Source: Planctomycetota bacterium (GTDB lineage: Bacteria > Planctomycetota > Planctomycetia > Pirellulales > Pirellulaceae). From it: DNA of 64,000 nucleotides. The stretch is from contig JAPLNL010000121.1 in NCBI GenBank assembly GCA_026692905.1, forward strand, positions 14,515 to 78,514, given 5' to 3'. Made by a program: the position numbers and the translations under genes. The notes beneath the pieces are model-generated. The model was not told the DNA's origin, ran no database searches, and worked only from the letters and a program-made list of their open reading frames with translations. This document shows, piece after piece, positions 18,871-60,572 of the stretch; position 1 is the first letter of the stretch, and each line of letters starts with the position of its first letter.

Positions 18871-19000
18871 AGCATTTCCGCAATGTATGTCGTTTCTAAA
18901 CCAAATCGATCCATGTCAAGGAGTCAATTTGTTAATATGACAAAGTGTCGTAAAGGAGATTTCATTTCATTTGAGTTCGTTGTTTGTCGAGGATCGCCTC

Positions 19001-19447
19001 ATGGGTTCGTTCACTCAACTCAATTACCACGTAGTTTTTGCGACCAAATTCCGGAATCGAGTCCTAGCAAAGTCAAATCAGACACTTTTGTATAACTACA
19101 TCGGCGGAGTCGTTCGTGGATTTTCAGGAGTGCTTGATTGTTGTGGCGGCATTGAAGATCATATCCACCTGCTTGTTAATATCCCGGCAAAAATTGCGGT
19201 GTCCGACGCCATTCGGTCAATCAAGTCCAACTCTTCTCGTTGGCTCAATGAACAAACCTGGAACGCCAAGGATTTCGAATGGCAGAAAGGTTATGGAGCG
19301 TTTAAGGTTAGTTTTTCGCAAATGGACCGTGTTCGGTCGTACATTGCAAACCAAGAAGTACACCATCAAAGGCTGTCGTTCCAACAGGAGTACATTAACT
19401 CACGGCGCCGTCGATTTGCTCTTCAACCTTGGCTTCGCCGACAATAA
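19001..19447 (+). CDS. IS200-like HUH (Y1) transposase
   Basis: 148 residues from the ATG at 19001 (MGSFTQLNYHVVFATKFR, the usual start of the family); an in-frame start at 18971 adds ten residues. It is a single-strand-acting transposase with an HUH pair H54-I-H56 (EDHIHLLVN) and a catalytic tyrosine Y114 (VRSYIANQEVHH). The GYGAFKVSFSQ stretch and HHQRLSFQQEY tail are characteristic of IS200/IS605-type TnpA and related domesticated transposases. No tnpB or paired ends were recognised. It sits just after an array of hairpins, and such enzymes recognise hairpins, so a REP/transposase relationship is likely but inferred. Its 3' end overlaps the convergent gene ending at 19400 by 48 bases. Confidence 0.88.
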   Translation: MGSFTQLNYHVVFATKFRNRVLAKSNQTLLYNYIGGVVRGFSGVLDCCGGIEDHIHLLVNIPAKIAVSDAIRSIKSNSSRWLNEQTWNAKDFEWQKGYGAFKVSFSQMDRVRSYIANQEVHHQRLSFQQEYINSRRRRFALQPWLRRQ

Positions 19448-54281: not shown

Positions 54282-57200
54282 TTACTTGGATCGCAGCAGG
54301 TTCATTGCCTTTTCGAGGTTCTTGGAATTGGTCGATTCCAATCGGAGTAACTGAATACGACGCGAGGATGCGGAACCGGATTGCTGATCAAGTTTGTCGA
54401 TGAAGAGCTTCACTTCGTCGATCAGCATGACTGGACCTCGCAGCACGATGGCGTTGGTCGTTTCGTCGATGGCCGCAGTCAGCAGTGGCCCAGCCGATTG
54501 AGCATTGATTTGTTGCAGTACCGTTGCGACTTCGGCCGAGACGCCTTCGGGGATGGTGATGGGATCTCGGCCAGCTCCGGTTTTTAACTGCGACTTGTAC
54601 ACTTCTTTGAGGACATCCACTACGTTTTTGGCGCTGGCGTTACGAAGCGTAACAATGGACGGCGAAATCTCTTGAATGGTATCAAGCAAATCTTTGGAGT
54701 CGAAAACGGCTAGTAACTCTTCGACGATTTTTCGGTCGGAACGATTGCCGCCGATGACCAATCCATTGATGCGAGGGTCGGCCACAATCTTGACTCGCTG
54801 CATCGCATCTCCGATAGGCGAACGACGATTGCTGCCAGAGCCGAACAAGTCGACGAGAAGTTCTTGGAGGTGTTTCGCATCGGCATGATGAAGAATATAA
54901 ATGGAATAGTTCCCTGCCGTTGCAATCGGAGTTACTTTGGGGCTCATTAAAGTATCGACTAGTCTCGAAAACAACTCGAGGGCTTCGGGATCGTCTGAGG
55001 CAATCGTCCATTGATCTTCCCCGGTTACCACGATGATCGGGGATGACTGTTGTCCCGCCCCTTGCTCCGGAGCTTGGTCAAGAGGTGCACCAGTTAGCCT
55101 TTGGAATGGAGTGCTGGTTACCAATCCGATCGCTTGTGGTTTTTTGATCGCTGCAGGTACGGGAGCCCCATTTGGATCAGGCTTACCCTCGCTCGATTTA
55201 GGTTCTACCGGTTGATTCGACCGTTCATTCGACTTTTCATTCGACTGTGGGTTGACGATATTGATGGGGTTGTTTCGTATGGTTGGCCAAAGCTCTTGCA
55301 GATCTTCGAGCAAACGCTTGGAATTGCGAGTCACTGGAACAAATCGTAATCTGCCAGAGCCAGCTCCCGCCGATGCTTTGGGAACCTGCGATTCCCCCAT
55401 TTGCTTCAAGAGCTTTCTTAGACTTTCGAGCTGATCTTTGGTAGCTCGTACTAAAATCTGCTGTTGGCTGGTATCGACTGATATCGATGGGGCGGTGGTC
55501 AAGGGCTCGTCCTGAAAGAGAGCGTCCGCCGCCAGCTTGAACGACATGGGATCGATGGCGTTCAATTGAATGATCTCCAACTCGCGTTTCGGAGGCGCGA
55601 ATTGTTGGATCGTTTCCTCGACCAAACGTAGTTGAGTTTCGTTCCCGGTCACGAACAATTGCTCTTGAAAGGGGTCATACCGAATATCGATCGAACTGGC
55701 GTCGTCCTTGAATAAGCTTTCGATGGAGGTCGTGATCGCCTTGCCATCCGCTCCGCTCACAGGGAATAGCTGCAGTCTTTTGGCTTCACGCGTCGACTTG
55801 GGCGCATCGAACTGTTCGATGATTTGTTCTGCGACAAGCTGCTCTTGATGGCTACCGACGACGAAGACACTCTTGGCGTCGCGACTGAAACTGATTCCCG
55901 CCGTAGAGCGTCTTCCGAAGGCAGTTTGGAGCGTTTCGGCAACCGAAGCGGGATTCGCGTGCTTGAGCACGAAAGCTTTCAATGTTGGGAGTTTGGTTGG
56001 CTGCTCATTGATTTCGTTGATGACTTGAGCGATCGCGGCATGGTCCTCGTCGGTCGCGGTTGCAAAGACGCCACCGCTGGTCGCATCGGCGGAAAATCCA
56101 GACTTGGGAAAGCTCTCCAGCAAAGCCTTTGCGACCGGTGTTGGCTCAGCGGCGACGAGAGAATAATACCGAGTCAATTTCGGCTTCGAGTTGCCTGTTT
56201 CGACTTCGGACACGATTTGGGCGATACGTTCCATTTCAACGGTTGGCGCTGTCACGATCAAGCTGTTCGTGGCGGTGTCGGCCGTGGTGGATGCCTTGGG
56301 CGAGAAGCCTTGCAAGGCGATTTTCAAGGTAGCTGCATTTCCTTTGCCGATCGAGAATACGCGGGTTTCGCTGTCTCGCATCTCGATGTCAAAATCCTTG
56401 ACAATCGCATCGATGCGTTTGTGCTGCTCTGACGTTGCCGTTGCAATCAGAACCCCTTCCTCGCGCGAACCAAAGACGGTTGCATCGGGCATCAAGCTCG
56501 TTAGAACCGTAGCCAGTCCCAACGCGTTGGCTTGCTTGAGACGATAGACACGTGTATCCAGATTCGAGGATTTTGGGACGTCAAAAGCTTTGATGAACTC
56601 CAAGATTTTTTGGTGTTCACGAGCCTTTGCGGACGCAGAGATTGTCTTGGATGTCGGATCTTGCACCACGGTAGCTCGAGGAACCAAGGACTGTAAAATC
56701 GTGAGCGCGCTGAGGGTATTGCCGTATTTCAATGGGTAGACTGCAGTGGTATTGCCTTCAGGCTGGGAAAGCTCTTGTTCTAGCTTGACAATTTTATCAG
56801 CGACCATGGCCAACTCCTCCGGAGTACCGATCGCCAAAAGGGTGCCATTGCGAACATTGGTTTCGAAGCGAATTTGGGCAGGCAAGGTGGCTTGAAGTGC
56901 GCTTAGCAAGCTAACTTGATCGACCCGTTCTTGATCGACCATGAAGACTTTGATGGTTTTTTCAGCCGCATTGGGGCCATTGAGCATGAGTTCAATGACC
57001 TCCTCGATGCGTCTGTGTTGTTCGGCAGTGGCCACTACGATAAGCTGGCCAGACGTTGCATCTGAGGTGAGTTCGATCAGCGGAAACAGAGTTCGCAACG
57101 AAGTTTGAACGACCGTCAACTGAGTCGGCTTAACGTTGTAGGTCGCAGGCGTTTTTGGCAAATCGTAAAGCTCAAGCAGCTCTCGAATCTTTTGGTGTTC

Positions 57201-60200
57201 AAATGGTTTTGCGGTGACAGCGATGGTGCGTGACGCAGGATCTTGAACCAGCGTCGCTTTCGGTACCAAGGGTAACAAGAGTGCGATCGCACCTGCAGTC
57301 GAAGTGTGTTTCAACTGATAGATTGAGGAGGTTGATGCCTCTGGGGCAGGTAGTTGTTTTTGCAATTCGTCGAACTTGGCGGTAACTAGCTCGAGTTCTT
57401 CCCGCGTTCCGATGGCGAGGATCGCATTGTTCGTTGGACTGGACTCGAGCCGAATTTGCGGCGGTAAAGTGGATTGCATCGCGGTCAACATCGTTGCAAG
57501 CTCGACACGTTCTGGCTCGATTCGAAACACCTTGATCGTCCTCTCTGCCGCGTTGGGGCCGCCAGACATCAATTCAATGACTTCAGCGATTCGCTTTTGC
57601 TGCTCGGGGGTAGCTACCACGATCAGTTGACCAGAGGTCGGGACCGATGCGACGCCTGCGGTTGGGAAGAGGGTTAGCAAAGAAGCTTGTAGCGCAACAA
57701 CTTGTGTTGGCTTTACGTTATAGGTCGCGGCTTCTTTTGCCGCTTGGGCTGTCTTAGCGATTTGCTCGAGAGCCTGTTGAACACGTTCTTGCTGTTCTTC
57801 ATTGCCCCAAACGGTAACCGTTCGCGATGGGATGTCGCTGCTGACGAGTGCTTGAGGTGCAATTTGGCCAAGGATCGTGGCTAGTGTTAACATGTCGCCA
57901 GCAGGTACAGGATAAGTTTTGACAAACTGGGGCTTGCCATCGGGGGATGAGATCAATCGCTGCATAGCCACGTCCAATTGGTCGAGCTCTTTCACGGTGC
58001 CGGACCCGATGATGCGATTGGCTGTAGCGTCAGCTGATAACTGCATCTCGGGCCAAAGCTTTTGCAAAACAGGCAGCAGTGTGGCCGCTTGAAGTCGCTT
58101 GGCTTCGTAAGACCGAATCTCCTTTGCGGTTCCAGCTTGCATGGGGCGGTCGATCTGGGTAATGGTCGCCTTCGCGATGGCTTGTGCTTCCAATGGTCCT
58201 GTGACCACGAGTTGCTTCAGTTTGTCATCGGCGATGGACAGCGTGCCGAGCGCGAGTTGATCGAACAGAATCTTGATTTGGGATGGGAGCGCATTTTCGA
58301 TCGGATAGGCAACCACGATCGGTTGTTGATCGACGGTCATGTTTTCACTGAGGGCGGTAATCAACGCTGCGATCTCTTGATGTGTTTTAATGTCTGCGCC
58401 GACTAGCAAACGATTGTGGACGGAATCCACGTTGACTCGCGCTTTGGCCAACAGTGGAGTTAGTGCCACTTGCAGCGTTGCTGCAGTCATACCTCGCACG
58501 GAGTAAGACTCTAAGGTAATGGGGCTTTTCTTAGGTAGCTGCTCGTTGAAGGTTTGGATTCTCGCATCGAGCTTGAGGTGCGATTTTTCGTCGGCCAGCA
58601 CGGTCAACGAATTGCCGTCCGCATCGGCGGTGATTTTTGCTTCAGGAAATTCCGTGGCCAGGATTTGTAGGACAACGGCGGTTTCTGTGAAAGTGATTGG
58701 ATACGATTTGGGCAGCGTCGGCATCGCTGCCGGAGCAGGTTGATCGAGATTTTCTAGCAGCTTGGCAAACTCGACATGCTGACCTTCCGTGGCCCAGACC
58801 AAAAGCTCTTGTTTGTTGACACCGTCGACGATTTTAATATTGAGCAAGTGCGGAGGTAGGTCGGTCAGACTCGTTCGACGCGCGAGTTGGCTTTTGGATA
58901 ACGCGTATATTTGCAGCTTGCGTTCTTCGATTTTTGGAATCAAACGGAGTAGCTGTGGCAACATCCGCTCCACGGTTTCGATGTCCGGGTTCATTGCAAG
59001 CAACGTGAGCTGTCGACCGTCATCGCTCAGCCAAGTATTGGCAGCCGGTGCAATGCGAGTAATGTTGGCTAGCCACTTTGCGTCCGCCAATTGTTCGAGC
59101 GGGAAGGTACGCAGTTGTAGCTGGTTCGCAGATTGCGATCGCTTCCAGATCTCAATCATTTCCCCGGCGATACGAAGTTCTTCTTCGGTGGCGCGAACGA
59201 CGATGCTGCCTGATTTGGTGTTCGAAGCGATTTGCCCCTTTGGCAAAAAAGACTTGAGGGCCGTTTCGACGAGCGTTGTCAGGGCTGGTTCTATTTCGAA
59301 AACTTTCATACTCTTGCCGCCATCGACTGGTATGACGTCGATGGCAATCAGACTTTTGCGGATGAGAGTCTGTTCCTCAGCGCGAGCGATGACCAAAACG
59401 CGATCGGTTGTTGCAGTGACAGTTGCATTTGGTGCGAGATTGAGAACTTGTTTTTTGATCTCGTCTGCCGTCGAGCCCGCCAATTGATAGGCAACCGCTT
59501 CTAATTGGGGGAGCTGCGTTGCGCTAGCGAGCATTTGATCGATGGCTAGTTTGACGGCAGTTTGTTGACCTGGAACGAGAAAAGCGCTCAGGACTCCACC
59601 TTTGGCATCGACTGTAATTTGCTCGCTGGCGATGAGCTTGCGAATCGTCTCGAGCGCGCGGGCGGCATCGAGGTTCCCGAGTGGGTACGATGCGAAGACT
59701 GGTTGTGGCGGAGGAGGCGGTGGCGTTTTCGGATCAACTTTAGGCAATGGAACAGATGCGATCAACTCATTGATCGTTTGCATCTTGCCTGCTGTTTCGA
59801 TAACGAGTAGCTGAGTCCCTTGGGCCAACGGAACAGCGCGACCGTAACTGGTCAGGAAAGGTTTGACCTCGGACAACACGGCATCGATGGCCCGTCCGCC
59901 AAGAGGGAAGATGACGCTGACCAATTCGAACCGCCCGCGTTGTGAGAGTTCGTCTAACTTGACGCGTGGCAGCAGCTCAATGGGGATCGAATCGTTCAAG
60001 GCCATAACGACCAGCATTTTCTCTCGGCGAACCAATGAGAAATTGCGAGTCATCAAAACGCTGTTGAGAAGATCGATACCTTCGCTGGGCGAGTAGGAGC
60101 GCGTATCGCTATAAGTAAAAGTGCCGGGCGGGATCTGGTCCATGACGAGCGTTAAATCTTGTTGGCCCGCGAACCAATCGAGCACAGCGTCCCATTTCAT

Positions 60201-60572
60201 TTCCCGGAATTGAAACATGAGTTTCTTGGGAATAGGAGATTCGAGGAATTTCGCGCGCTGTTCGGTGGTCAGTAGGGCCAATATCTTGGCGTTGAAGTCG
60301 GATTTGATTGTGTCTTTGGTTGCTGCGTTAGCGGGAGCGACGACGGCCTCTGCTCGAGATTGGAGCAGTTTTTGAATTTCCGCGCGTTGGGTATCGACCA
60401 GACTAAGGCGTTCGGCGACGTCGGGGTGGATCAGTCGAGCGACATCAGGCTCCTGAGCATGAATGGGGCCAATGGCAGCCAGGACTGCCATCGACGCGAA
60501 TAGGATCATGAAATGCAAAGAACGGTTCGCGACCATGGATCGAGCTCGAAATCGAGGTATTGGAAGTGTCAT
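54282..60572 (-). CDS. Giant exported protein of about 25 tandem secretin-N/NolW-like repeats
   Basis: 2,096 residues. A signal peptide or anchor (about residues 18-40, ending IHAQ) is followed by a helical segment with LTTEQRAKFL, then an N0-like domain (about 112-190; LMFQFREMKWDAVLDWFAGQ) as found at the start of secretins. From about 200 to the end there are roughly 25 units of 60-70 residues, each with the pattern Y-x-(L/V) ... helix ... P-x-A ... D-x-x-x-x-x-L-x-V-x-A-T-x-x-(E/Q), typical of the N1/N3 (NolW) domains of type II/III secretins and PilQ. No secretin barrel or TonB-type domain follows: the chain ends after a last unit with NLLRSK. A proline-rich linker lies near residues 1,755-1,840. 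Two blocks of about 192 residues near 950-1,333 are a recent internal duplication. Function is not known. A start at 60536 is possible. Confidence 0.85.
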   Translation of the reverse strand: MTLPIPRFRARSMVANRSLHFMILFASMAVLAAIGPIHAQEPDVARLIHPDVAERLSLVDTQRAEIQKLLQSRAEAVVAPANAATKDTIKSDFNAKILALLTTEQRAKFLESPIPKKLMFQFREMKWDAVLDWFAGQQDLTLVMDQIPPGTFTYSDTRSYSPSEGIDLLNSVLMTRNFSLVRREKMLVVMALNDSIPIELLPRVKLDELSQRGRFELVSVIFPLGGRAIDAVLSEVKPFLTSYGRAVPLAQGTQLLVIETAGKMQTINELIASVPLPKVDPKTPPPPPPQPVFASYPLGNLDAARALETIRKLIASEQITVDAKGGVLSAFLVPGQQTAVKLAIDQMLASATQLPQLEAVAYQLAGSTADEIKKQVLNLAPNATVTATTDRVLVIARAEEQTLIRKSLIAIDVIPVDGGKSMKVFEIEPALTTLVETALKSFLPKGQIASNTKSGSIVVRATEEELRIAGEMIEIWKRSQSANQLQLRTFPLEQLADAKWLANITRIAPAANTWLSDDGRQLTLLAMNPDIETVERMLPQLLRLIPKIEERKLQIYALSKSQLARRTSLTDLPPHLLNIKIVDGVNKQELLVWATEGQHVEFAKLLENLDQPAPAAMPTLPKSYPITFTETAVVLQILATEFPEAKITADADGNSLTVLADEKSHLKLDARIQTFNEQLPKKSPITLESYSVRGMTAATLQVALTPLLAKARVNVDSVHNRLLVGADIKTHQEIAALITALSENMTVDQQPIVVAYPIENALPSQIKILFDQLALGTLSIADDKLKQLVVTGPLEAQAIAKATITQIDRPMQAGTAKEIRSYEAKRLQAATLLPVLQKLWPEMQLSADATANRIIGSGTVKELDQLDVAMQRLISSPDGKPQFVKTYPVPAGDMLTLATILGQIAPQALVSSDIPSRTVTVWGNEEQQERVQQALEQIAKTAQAAKEAATYNVKPTQVVALQASLLTLFPTAGVASVPTSGQLIVVATPEQQKRIAEVIELMSGGPNAAERTIKVFRIEPERVELATMLTAMQSTLPPQIRLESSPTNNAILAIGTREELELVTAKFDELQKQLPAPEASTSSIYQLKHTSTAGAIALLLPLVPKATLVQDPASRTIAVTAKPFEHQKIRELLELYDLPKTPATYNVKPTQLTVVQTSLRTLFPLIELTSDATSGQLIVVATAEQHRRIEEVIELMLNGPNAAEKTIKVFMVDQERVDQVSLLSALQATLPAQIRFETNVRNGTLLAIGTPEELAMVADKIVKLEQELSQPEGNTTAVYPLKYGNTLSALTILQSLVPRATVVQDPTSKTISASAKAREHQKILEFIKAFDVPKSSNLDTRVYRLKQANALGLATVLTSLMPDATVFGSREEGVLIATATSEQHKRIDAIVKDFDIEMRDSETRVFSIGKGNAATLKIALQGFSPKASTTADTATNSLIVTAPTVEMERIAQIVSEVETGNSKPKLTRYYSLVAAEPTPVAKALLESFPKSGFSADATSGGVFATATDEDHAAIAQVINEINEQPTKLPTLKAFVLKHANPASVAETLQTAFGRRSTAGISFSRDAKSVFVVGSHQEQLVAEQIIEQFDAPKSTREAKRLQLFPVSGADGKAITTSIESLFKDDASSIDIRYDPFQEQLFVTGNETQLRLVEETIQQFAPPKRELEIIQLNAIDPMSFKLAADALFQDEPLTTAPSISVDTSQQQILVRATKDQLESLRKLLKQMGESQVPKASAGAGSGRLRFVPVTRNSKRLLEDLQELWPTIRNNPINIVNPQSNEKSNERSNQPVEPKSSEGKPDPNGAPVPAAIKKPQAIGLVTSTPFQRLTGAPLDQAPEQGAGQQSSPIIVVTGEDQWTIASDDPEALELFSRLVDTLMSPKVTPIATAGNYSIYILHHADAKHLQELLVDLFGSGSNRRSPIGDAMQRVKIVADPRINGLVIGGNRSDRKIVEELLAVFDSKDLLDTIQEISPSIVTLRNASAKNVVDVLKEVYKSQLKTGAGRDPITIPEGVSAEVATVLQQINAQSAGPLLTAAIDETTNAIVLRGPVMLIDEVKLFIDKLDQQSGSASSRRIQLLRLESTNSKNLEKAMNLLRSK
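56575..57730 (-). repeat. Tandem duplication of a three-unit block within the giant repeat protein
   Basis: Each copy, about 576 bases, encodes three units beginning ATYNVKPTQ, TIKVF and a Y-x-LK-x unit (YQLKHTSTAG / YPLKYGNTLS). Copy 1 occupies about 57,150-57,730 and copy 2 about 56,575-57,149. Matching stretches include TSGQLIVVAT and VIELM-x-x-GPNAAE. Similarity between copies is far higher than between neighbouring units. Confidence 0.75.

Follow-up and report, generated by a model that had tools for sequence, protein, structure and literature searches.

A barrel-less chain of 26 secretin N1-type units in a planctomycete, a probable module of a divided giant type II secretion secretin

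Introduction

Known secretins carry a handful of N domains. The subject of this report is a 64,000-nucleotide stretch of DNA from a Planctomycetota bacterium of the Pirellulaceae (assembly GCA_026692905.1, contig JAPLNL010000121.1, positions 14,515 to 78,514 of the forward strand; hereafter the window), and in it the gene for P0001, a long chain of such domains without a secretin barrel, which we call a poly-N protein. Its closest described counterparts are GspD, XcpQ and PulD, secretins of the type II secretion system (T2SS) with the order N0-N1-N2-N3-barrel. P0001 resembles them in its N0 domain and N1-type units, by both sequence and fold, and in the gspE to gspK genes that accompany it in relatives; it differs in that the barrel belongs to another gene and in having 26 N1-type units against their three.

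Two further systems invite comparison. As described in the reports on Thermus thermophilus PilQ, this secretin has six stacked rings (N0-N5), measures about 35 nm and spans a wide periplasm (PMC5745081, PMC4463427); its authors call six rings an unusual number and link the extra N rings to the wide periplasm. P0001 shares with PilQ this surplus of N domains, whereas PilQ, as there described, is one chain with its barrel and has five N1-type units rather than 26. In the mitochondrial T2SS-like apparatus of some protists, according to PMC8134430, GspD is split into a barrel protein and Secretin_N proteins (GspDN1-3), with two half domains. The separation of N-domain and barrel polypeptides and the occurrence of half N domains recall our case, but the protist proteins described there have single N domains and no N0, and P0001 is one giant chain with an N0. 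We found no description of poly-N or giant secretins in the open-access literature (most subscription journals and bioRxiv lay outside the scope of this search).

Here we propose, with a probability of roughly 0.6, that P0001 represents the periplasmic part nearest the inner membrane of a giant T2SS secretin (GspD) that has been split. There is good support for its split origin and for its company of T2SS genes; that it forms rings and docks to its partners is suggested by analogy with known secretins.

Results

P0001 is a chain of N1-type units behind an N0 domain

P0001 consists of 26 complete N1-type units followed by a conserved C-terminal half-unit. In a Pfam search, Secretin_N (PF03958) matches it over 18 stretches (E=1.6e-99), and the Secretin barrel (PF00263) is not listed at E<=10. 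An iterated hidden Markov model (HMM) of the unit, built by us, recognises 24 units, spaced at a median of 65 amino acids (aa), and, at the same threshold, none in 200 shuffles of P0001. Two more units, at residues of about 220-273 and 1742-1876 (the latter with a low-confidence insert), are added by the secondary structure of AlphaFold2 models. These single-chain models cover residues 38-1140 and 1000-2096, with a mean predicted local distance difference test score (pLDDT) of 73.3 and 65.7, respectively, and show a beta-alpha-beta-beta-alpha order in successive units throughout. In Foldseek searches of the PDB, T2SS secretins and their N-domain crystal structures ranked at the top for both halves. 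The N0 assignment is further supported by a family profile (A4, 39 sequences) whose only PDB matches are GspD/XcpQ of T2SS (four distinct sequences, E 0.0026-0.0028). The parts of the gene are as follows.

54282..60572, minus strand: barrel-less poly-N chain P0001; open reading frame (ORF) of 2096 aa, probable true start at Met13, base 60536
60456..60536, minus strand: predicted signal segment, residues 13-39
60234..60455, minus strand: helical segment, residues 40-113; AlphaFold2 helices, conserved in the family
59973..60233, minus strand: N0 domain, residues 114-200; AlphaFold2 order b-a-b-b-a-b-b
55383..59939, minus strand: N1-type units 1-23, residues 212-1730; median period 65 aa
56571..57731, minus strand: three-unit block duplicated within the chain (units 12-14 and 15-17), from unit identities
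54933..55352, minus strand: unit 24, residues 1741-1880, with the long low-confidence insert
54375..54908, minus strand: units 25-26, the conserved C-terminal pair, residues 1889-2066
54285..54365, minus strand: terminal half-unit, residues 2070-2096; strand-helix beginning of a further unit, low pLDDT

The start is placed at Met13 because the orthologue in G021, a genome of the same genus, begins there. Export is predicted from a signal segment read in the sequence, and orthologues have similar hydrophobic N-termini. Our profile of the helical segment (NTHEL) matches most family members, and the last 27 residues, which form the half-unit, are conserved to the very end within the genus. The first-pass annotation, made from the letters of the window, had described an exported chain of about 25 secretin-N units with an N0-like domain and without a barrel, and on each of these points the analysis agrees with it.

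Within the duplicated block, the units at residues 950 and 1144 are 68% identical and those at 1084 and 1278 are 46% identical. Duplication offsets of three units occur in the window and in G018, offsets of two, four and six units in G036, and offsets of three, four, six and eight units in G033. From these sequence comparisons, poly-N chains seem to change in length by duplication of unit blocks. By our HMM, the unit number ranges from 9 to 47 across the barrel-less long forms and is about five in short forms. The largest barrel-less form seen (L069:4037-15286(+)) has 3,749 aa and 47 units by the same HMM; it was recently amplified, as indicated by middle units that are up to 89% identical.

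The gene is maintained within the genus

The poly-N gene is found in 22 of 27 genomes of the same genus (G000-G026), in some of them partial at contig ends. The other five (G002, G003, G006, G016 and G025) have only weaker poly-N matches, G003 and G025 being 77% and 80% complete. Complete ORFs of 1931-2157 aa are present in 14 same-genus genomes, the window's included. Between P0001 and its closest orthologue, the 94%-identical one of G021, the ratio of nonsynonymous to synonymous substitution rates (dN/dS) is 0.055, with dS 0.52, over 2,080 codons. This purifying selection, together with a complete ORF in 13 other genomes of the genus, indicates that P0001 is not a decayed piece. A truncated ordinary secretin is likewise ruled out by the conserved C-terminus, the dN/dS and the orthologues.

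Conservation is uneven along the chain. N0 is the most conserved segment (mean pairwise identity 0.63), closely followed by unit 1 (0.62). Identity is 0.23-0.44 in units 2-24, 0.47 and 0.51 in units 25 and 26, and 0.48 in the half-unit.

Relatives place poly-N at the head of T2SS operons

Scanning GTDB contigs with an alignment of the C-terminal region gave 51 loci, 50 with planctomycete titles and one titled 'bacterium' only; two of them (L122 and L124) come from one metagenome-assembled genome. Clustering of neighbouring ORFs, Pfam and NCBIfam show that in many relatives gspE, gspF, gspG and genes for minor pseudopilins come after poly-N. Downstream sequence of 3.5 kb or more is available for 42 loci; 27 of them carry gspE no more than 3.5 kb away and on the poly-N strand, plus gspF, and 22 of these 27 also have a gene labelled gspK; gspE is downstream in a further four of the nine loci with less than 3.5 kb. 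One locus without gspE (L129) has gspF directly after poly-N. GspG passes its NCBIfam T2SS cut-off (120.8 vs 88.85 bits), and the operon ATPase scores 626 bits as GspE vs 568 as PilB.

Six long-form operons were read past gspK (G036, G030, G037, G009, G024 and the window's genome); a seventh, in G044, runs into a contig end. In G036, G030 and G037, gspK is followed by a PilM/GspL-like gene (assigned by profile in G037 and by position in the other two), a GspM-like gene (with an NCBIfam score under the cut-off in G037 and G036), a barrel secretin and a further gene. No secretin follows gspK in the operons of G009, G024 and the window's genome. In G024, which belongs to the same genus, a secretin gene lies divergently beside poly-N, upstream of it, and a barrel ORF is present on six of the 51 scanned loci. 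No gene of the operons read is named GspC, and no search aimed at GspC was made.

The window's genome has its genes from gspE to the GspM-like one within contig C97, apart from poly-N, and its only T2SSG match falls on this contig. Across 25 genomes of the genus (G000-G024), among the matches listed, 18 have both a gspE of the operon type (79% identity or more; partial in two of the genomes) and a long poly-N, four have neither, three have poly-N alone (G001, G008 and G018; 80-93% complete) and none has gspE alone (Fisher p 0.003, relatedness ignored). The idea that P0001 has its own transcription unit is consistent with the window, in which the gene is flanked by ORFs that are histidine-kinase-like, amidohydrolase-like or unnamed, and does not extend to the 27 loci in which T2SS genes follow. 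Nor is the gene as isolated from characterised systems as it had first appeared: it is not free-standing, but heads a T2SS operon in many relatives and is fused to a barrel in other lineages.

Other genes of these neighbourhoods may be recorded here. A second gspE type is preceded by a barrel-less N0 chain of smaller size, about 1,140 aa, in L070:2028-5444(-), L088:6859-10320(-) and L142. The one-contig genome G006, without the long form, has gspE to gspK after the short chain, and no secretin in the next stretch. L073:5984-9037(+) is a third barrel-less N0 protein (1,017 aa) of its genome; before it come an unnamed 730-aa gene, one for a pseudouridine synthase and one with DUF1598, and the stretch read contains no T2SS gene. 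A gene matching the profile of an EF-hand cluster (cl16) lies near poly-N in L065, L068, L069, L182, L184-L186 and L190, outside the window's genus; its EF-hand identity was checked by Pfam in L068 only. In the window itself, a short ORF at 18971-19447 (plus strand) has a start that resembles what we take to be an IS200-type transposase motif.

Barrels occur in separate genes and in fused giants

The window's genome has seven Secretin matches at E<=1e-15. One of its secretins, on contig C107, is homologous to the secretin beside poly-N in G024, and a partial homologue is present in G023. That poly-N replaces a secretin is ruled out by these barrel secretins, which occur in the genome and sometimes in the operon. 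Among the complete stand-alone secretins of genomes or loci with poly-N, eight are distinct. None of the eight has an N0 match at E<=1 (one has a meaningless match at E=8), and in several of them the first N unit closely follows the signal segment. N0 is present in 79 of the 81 complete barrel-less ORFs above 900 aa, duplicate loci counted. In the long-form loci examined, poly-N holds the only N0 found in the pair. Five smaller secretins of the window's genome were also profiled, of which one, C14 with 607 aa, weakly matches N0 (E=5e-5); these smaller secretins are taken to serve other systems.

In a sample of the phylum, 105 of 393 genomes matched the C-terminal profile at E<=1e-8. N0, N units and barrel are joined in one chain in 13 complete ORFs of 2,137-5,073 aa, the five shorter ones from the window's class and the eight longer ones from outside it. 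The long-frame search gave the following.

L175, 3855 aa; L176, 3564 aa; L191, 4848 aa; L192, 4830 aa
L193, 4794 aa; L194, 5073 aa; L198, 3881 aa; L206, 3103 aa
L177-L179, L204 and L205, 2137-2291 aa

All 13 complete fused ORFs above 2000 aa carry N0 and barrel by a wide profile, which some of them helped to build. Our HMM counts 5-34 units in the fused chains, and Pfam gives 32 Secretin_N stretches in L175, 34 in L176, 44 in L191 and 45 in L193, each with one C-terminal Secretin domain. These giants, known here as sequences alone, share with P0001 the N0, the many N units and the phylum, and differ in having the barrel in the same chain. In L189 such a chain is interrupted: a frame with N0 is followed, after 39 bases, by a frame with N units plus barrel; the interruption is possibly a sequencing error. 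In each of 14 fused chains, the best match to a profile of the stand-alone secretins fell in the C-terminal part, but it was not used to place the split point, since shared repeats and barrel make this result expected.

In a tree of 31 barrels, one clade (100/99) unites the 12 split secretins, including the eight complete ones without N0, and is sister to the fused forms of 2.1-2.3 thousand aa (87/87). A fused ancestor of the split forms seems likely to us. The first-pass annotation had asked whether a barrel fused or adjacent in relatives would reveal P0001 as a broken piece: a barrel is indeed fused in distant relatives and adjacent in G024, and the gene is not broken.

Directly after the barrel secretin, four loci have a gene of 330-440 aa without family match (L140:4973-6064(-), L141:6627-7622(-), L146:5363-6679(-) and L071:11653-12681(+)). 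Its start looks lipoprotein-signal-like by eye in L140 and L141, which makes it a pilotin candidate.

Discussion

If P0001 is the inner-membrane-proximal module of a split GspD, several copies would stack side by side, each unit contributing one ring as in known secretins, and together would build a long tube. The N0 end of this tube would meet the inner-membrane platform, and the conserved C-terminal end (units 25-26 and the half-unit) would meet the ring stack of the separate secretin. The pseudopilus could thereby work across a wide planctomycete periplasm, and the unit number would set the length of the tube. The conservation profile of the chain is the pattern that a spacer between two docking ends might be expected to leave in the sequences, and agrees with such a tube. 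Of the architectures first suggested for this chain, a tube or a scaffold around a pore remains the best class of guess, and an intramolecular ring is disfavoured.

Several observations weigh against this reading. The P0001 models have a predicted template modelling score (pTM) of 0.26-0.27, and the Foldseek superpositions have low template modelling scores and high root-mean-square deviations, so that unit-unit packing cannot be read from the models. The low scores of the superpositions arise because few units superpose at one time. Downstream gspE is absent in the window and in 15 of the 42 loci with room (L092, L094, L097-L103, L113, L129, L131, L134, L138 and L139), the first nine of which belong to the window's genus, as judged by their match to loci of the genus genomes. 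Among the operon proteins only GspG passes its NCBIfam cut-off; GspE falls 4 bits under its curated cut-off and the minor pseudopilins well under theirs. Two barrel-less ORFs, each a second piece in its locus (L130 and L137), have no N0. Finally, the tree does not decide between fused-first and split-first histories, because the backbone among the giants is not resolved.

To these must be added the family f21. Of its 118 sampled genomes, at least 18 contain a stand-alone secretin whose frame (1318-1491 aa) has an N0 of its own, counted as frames shared by the N0 and barrel matches listed; in three more genomes such an N0 frame is present and its barrel match lies beyond those listed. Each of these 18 genomes also has another N0 frame, which is without a barrel where it was read (G111, G222, G272 and G234), so that poly-N is there an extra part and not a split-off half. 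In G234, which has a long poly-N, the nearby secretin frame (1326 aa) has no N0 at E<=1e-5, and another secretin (1343 aa) has one. The statement that every associated secretin lacks N0 is true of the eight complete stand-alone secretins and fails in f21, and we have narrowed it to the long-form loci examined. Given f21 and G234, poly-N is better termed a GspD-derived module.

An unlikely alternative is that P0001, in one or a few copies, behaves like beads on a flexible or coiled string and connects platform to secretin in the manner of GspC, without closed rings. The low pTM, with no firm packing between units, would suit such a connector, as would the lack of a gene named GspC in the operons read and a chain conserved at both ends and variable in the middle. 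On the other hand, N0 and N1-type units form rings in secretins of known structure, according to PMC5745081 and PMC6882859. The fused giants also speak against it: the Secretin barrel oligomerises, as its family would imply, and the N units joined to it should then be present in the same multiplicity.

It is also doubtful that the operon makes a type IV pilus-like fibre instead of a T2SS, with poly-N guiding the fibre. PilB and PilM-type profiles do match the operon, and planctomycetes have 12-nm pili-like fibres at their crateriform structures, as PMC5394234 describes; against this stand the GspG score above the T2SS cut-off and an ATPase that scores higher as GspE than as PilB. Lateral packing of N-type domains in secretin rings is well established, and could allow the units of a single chain to close a ring around the pseudopilus or a pore. 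We hold this to be quite improbable, as a unit number that varies from 9 to 47 in long forms and is about five in short ones is ill-suited to one closed ring, and the fused relatives point to units arranged axially, as in a secretin chain. That P0001 is a decayed secretin, drifting after the loss of its barrel, might be argued from its place apart from the operon in the window, but is barely credible in view of its dN/dS, its completeness in 13 other genomes of the genus and its conserved C-terminus.

The favoured reading of P0001 as a module of a split GspD may be extended, tentatively, to the phylum. The core of the planctomycete T2SS could be an envelope-spanning secretin-type tube of about 30 to 45 N rings, with a length of the order of 100 nm, made of one giant chain or of two (poly-N and barrel secretin), and might be part of the crateriform structures. 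PMC5394234 describes the planctomycete periplasm as variable and sometimes greatly enlarged. The crateriform structures of the outer membrane are presented there as press stud-like connections to the cytoplasmic membrane, and some of them bear 12-nm fibres. That the poly-N system is linked to these structures is speculation; they are seen where the two membranes are close, a proximity that a long tube would not need.

Planctomycete lineages carry 26 to 45 N domains, fused to or split from the barrel. If the proposed stacking is true, these chains would serve as molecular rulers where the periplasm is wide, and would provide an example from bacteria of one secretin encoded by two genes. They would also offer concrete genes with which to ask what crateriform structures are composed of and how large molecules are transported across the planctomycete envelope.

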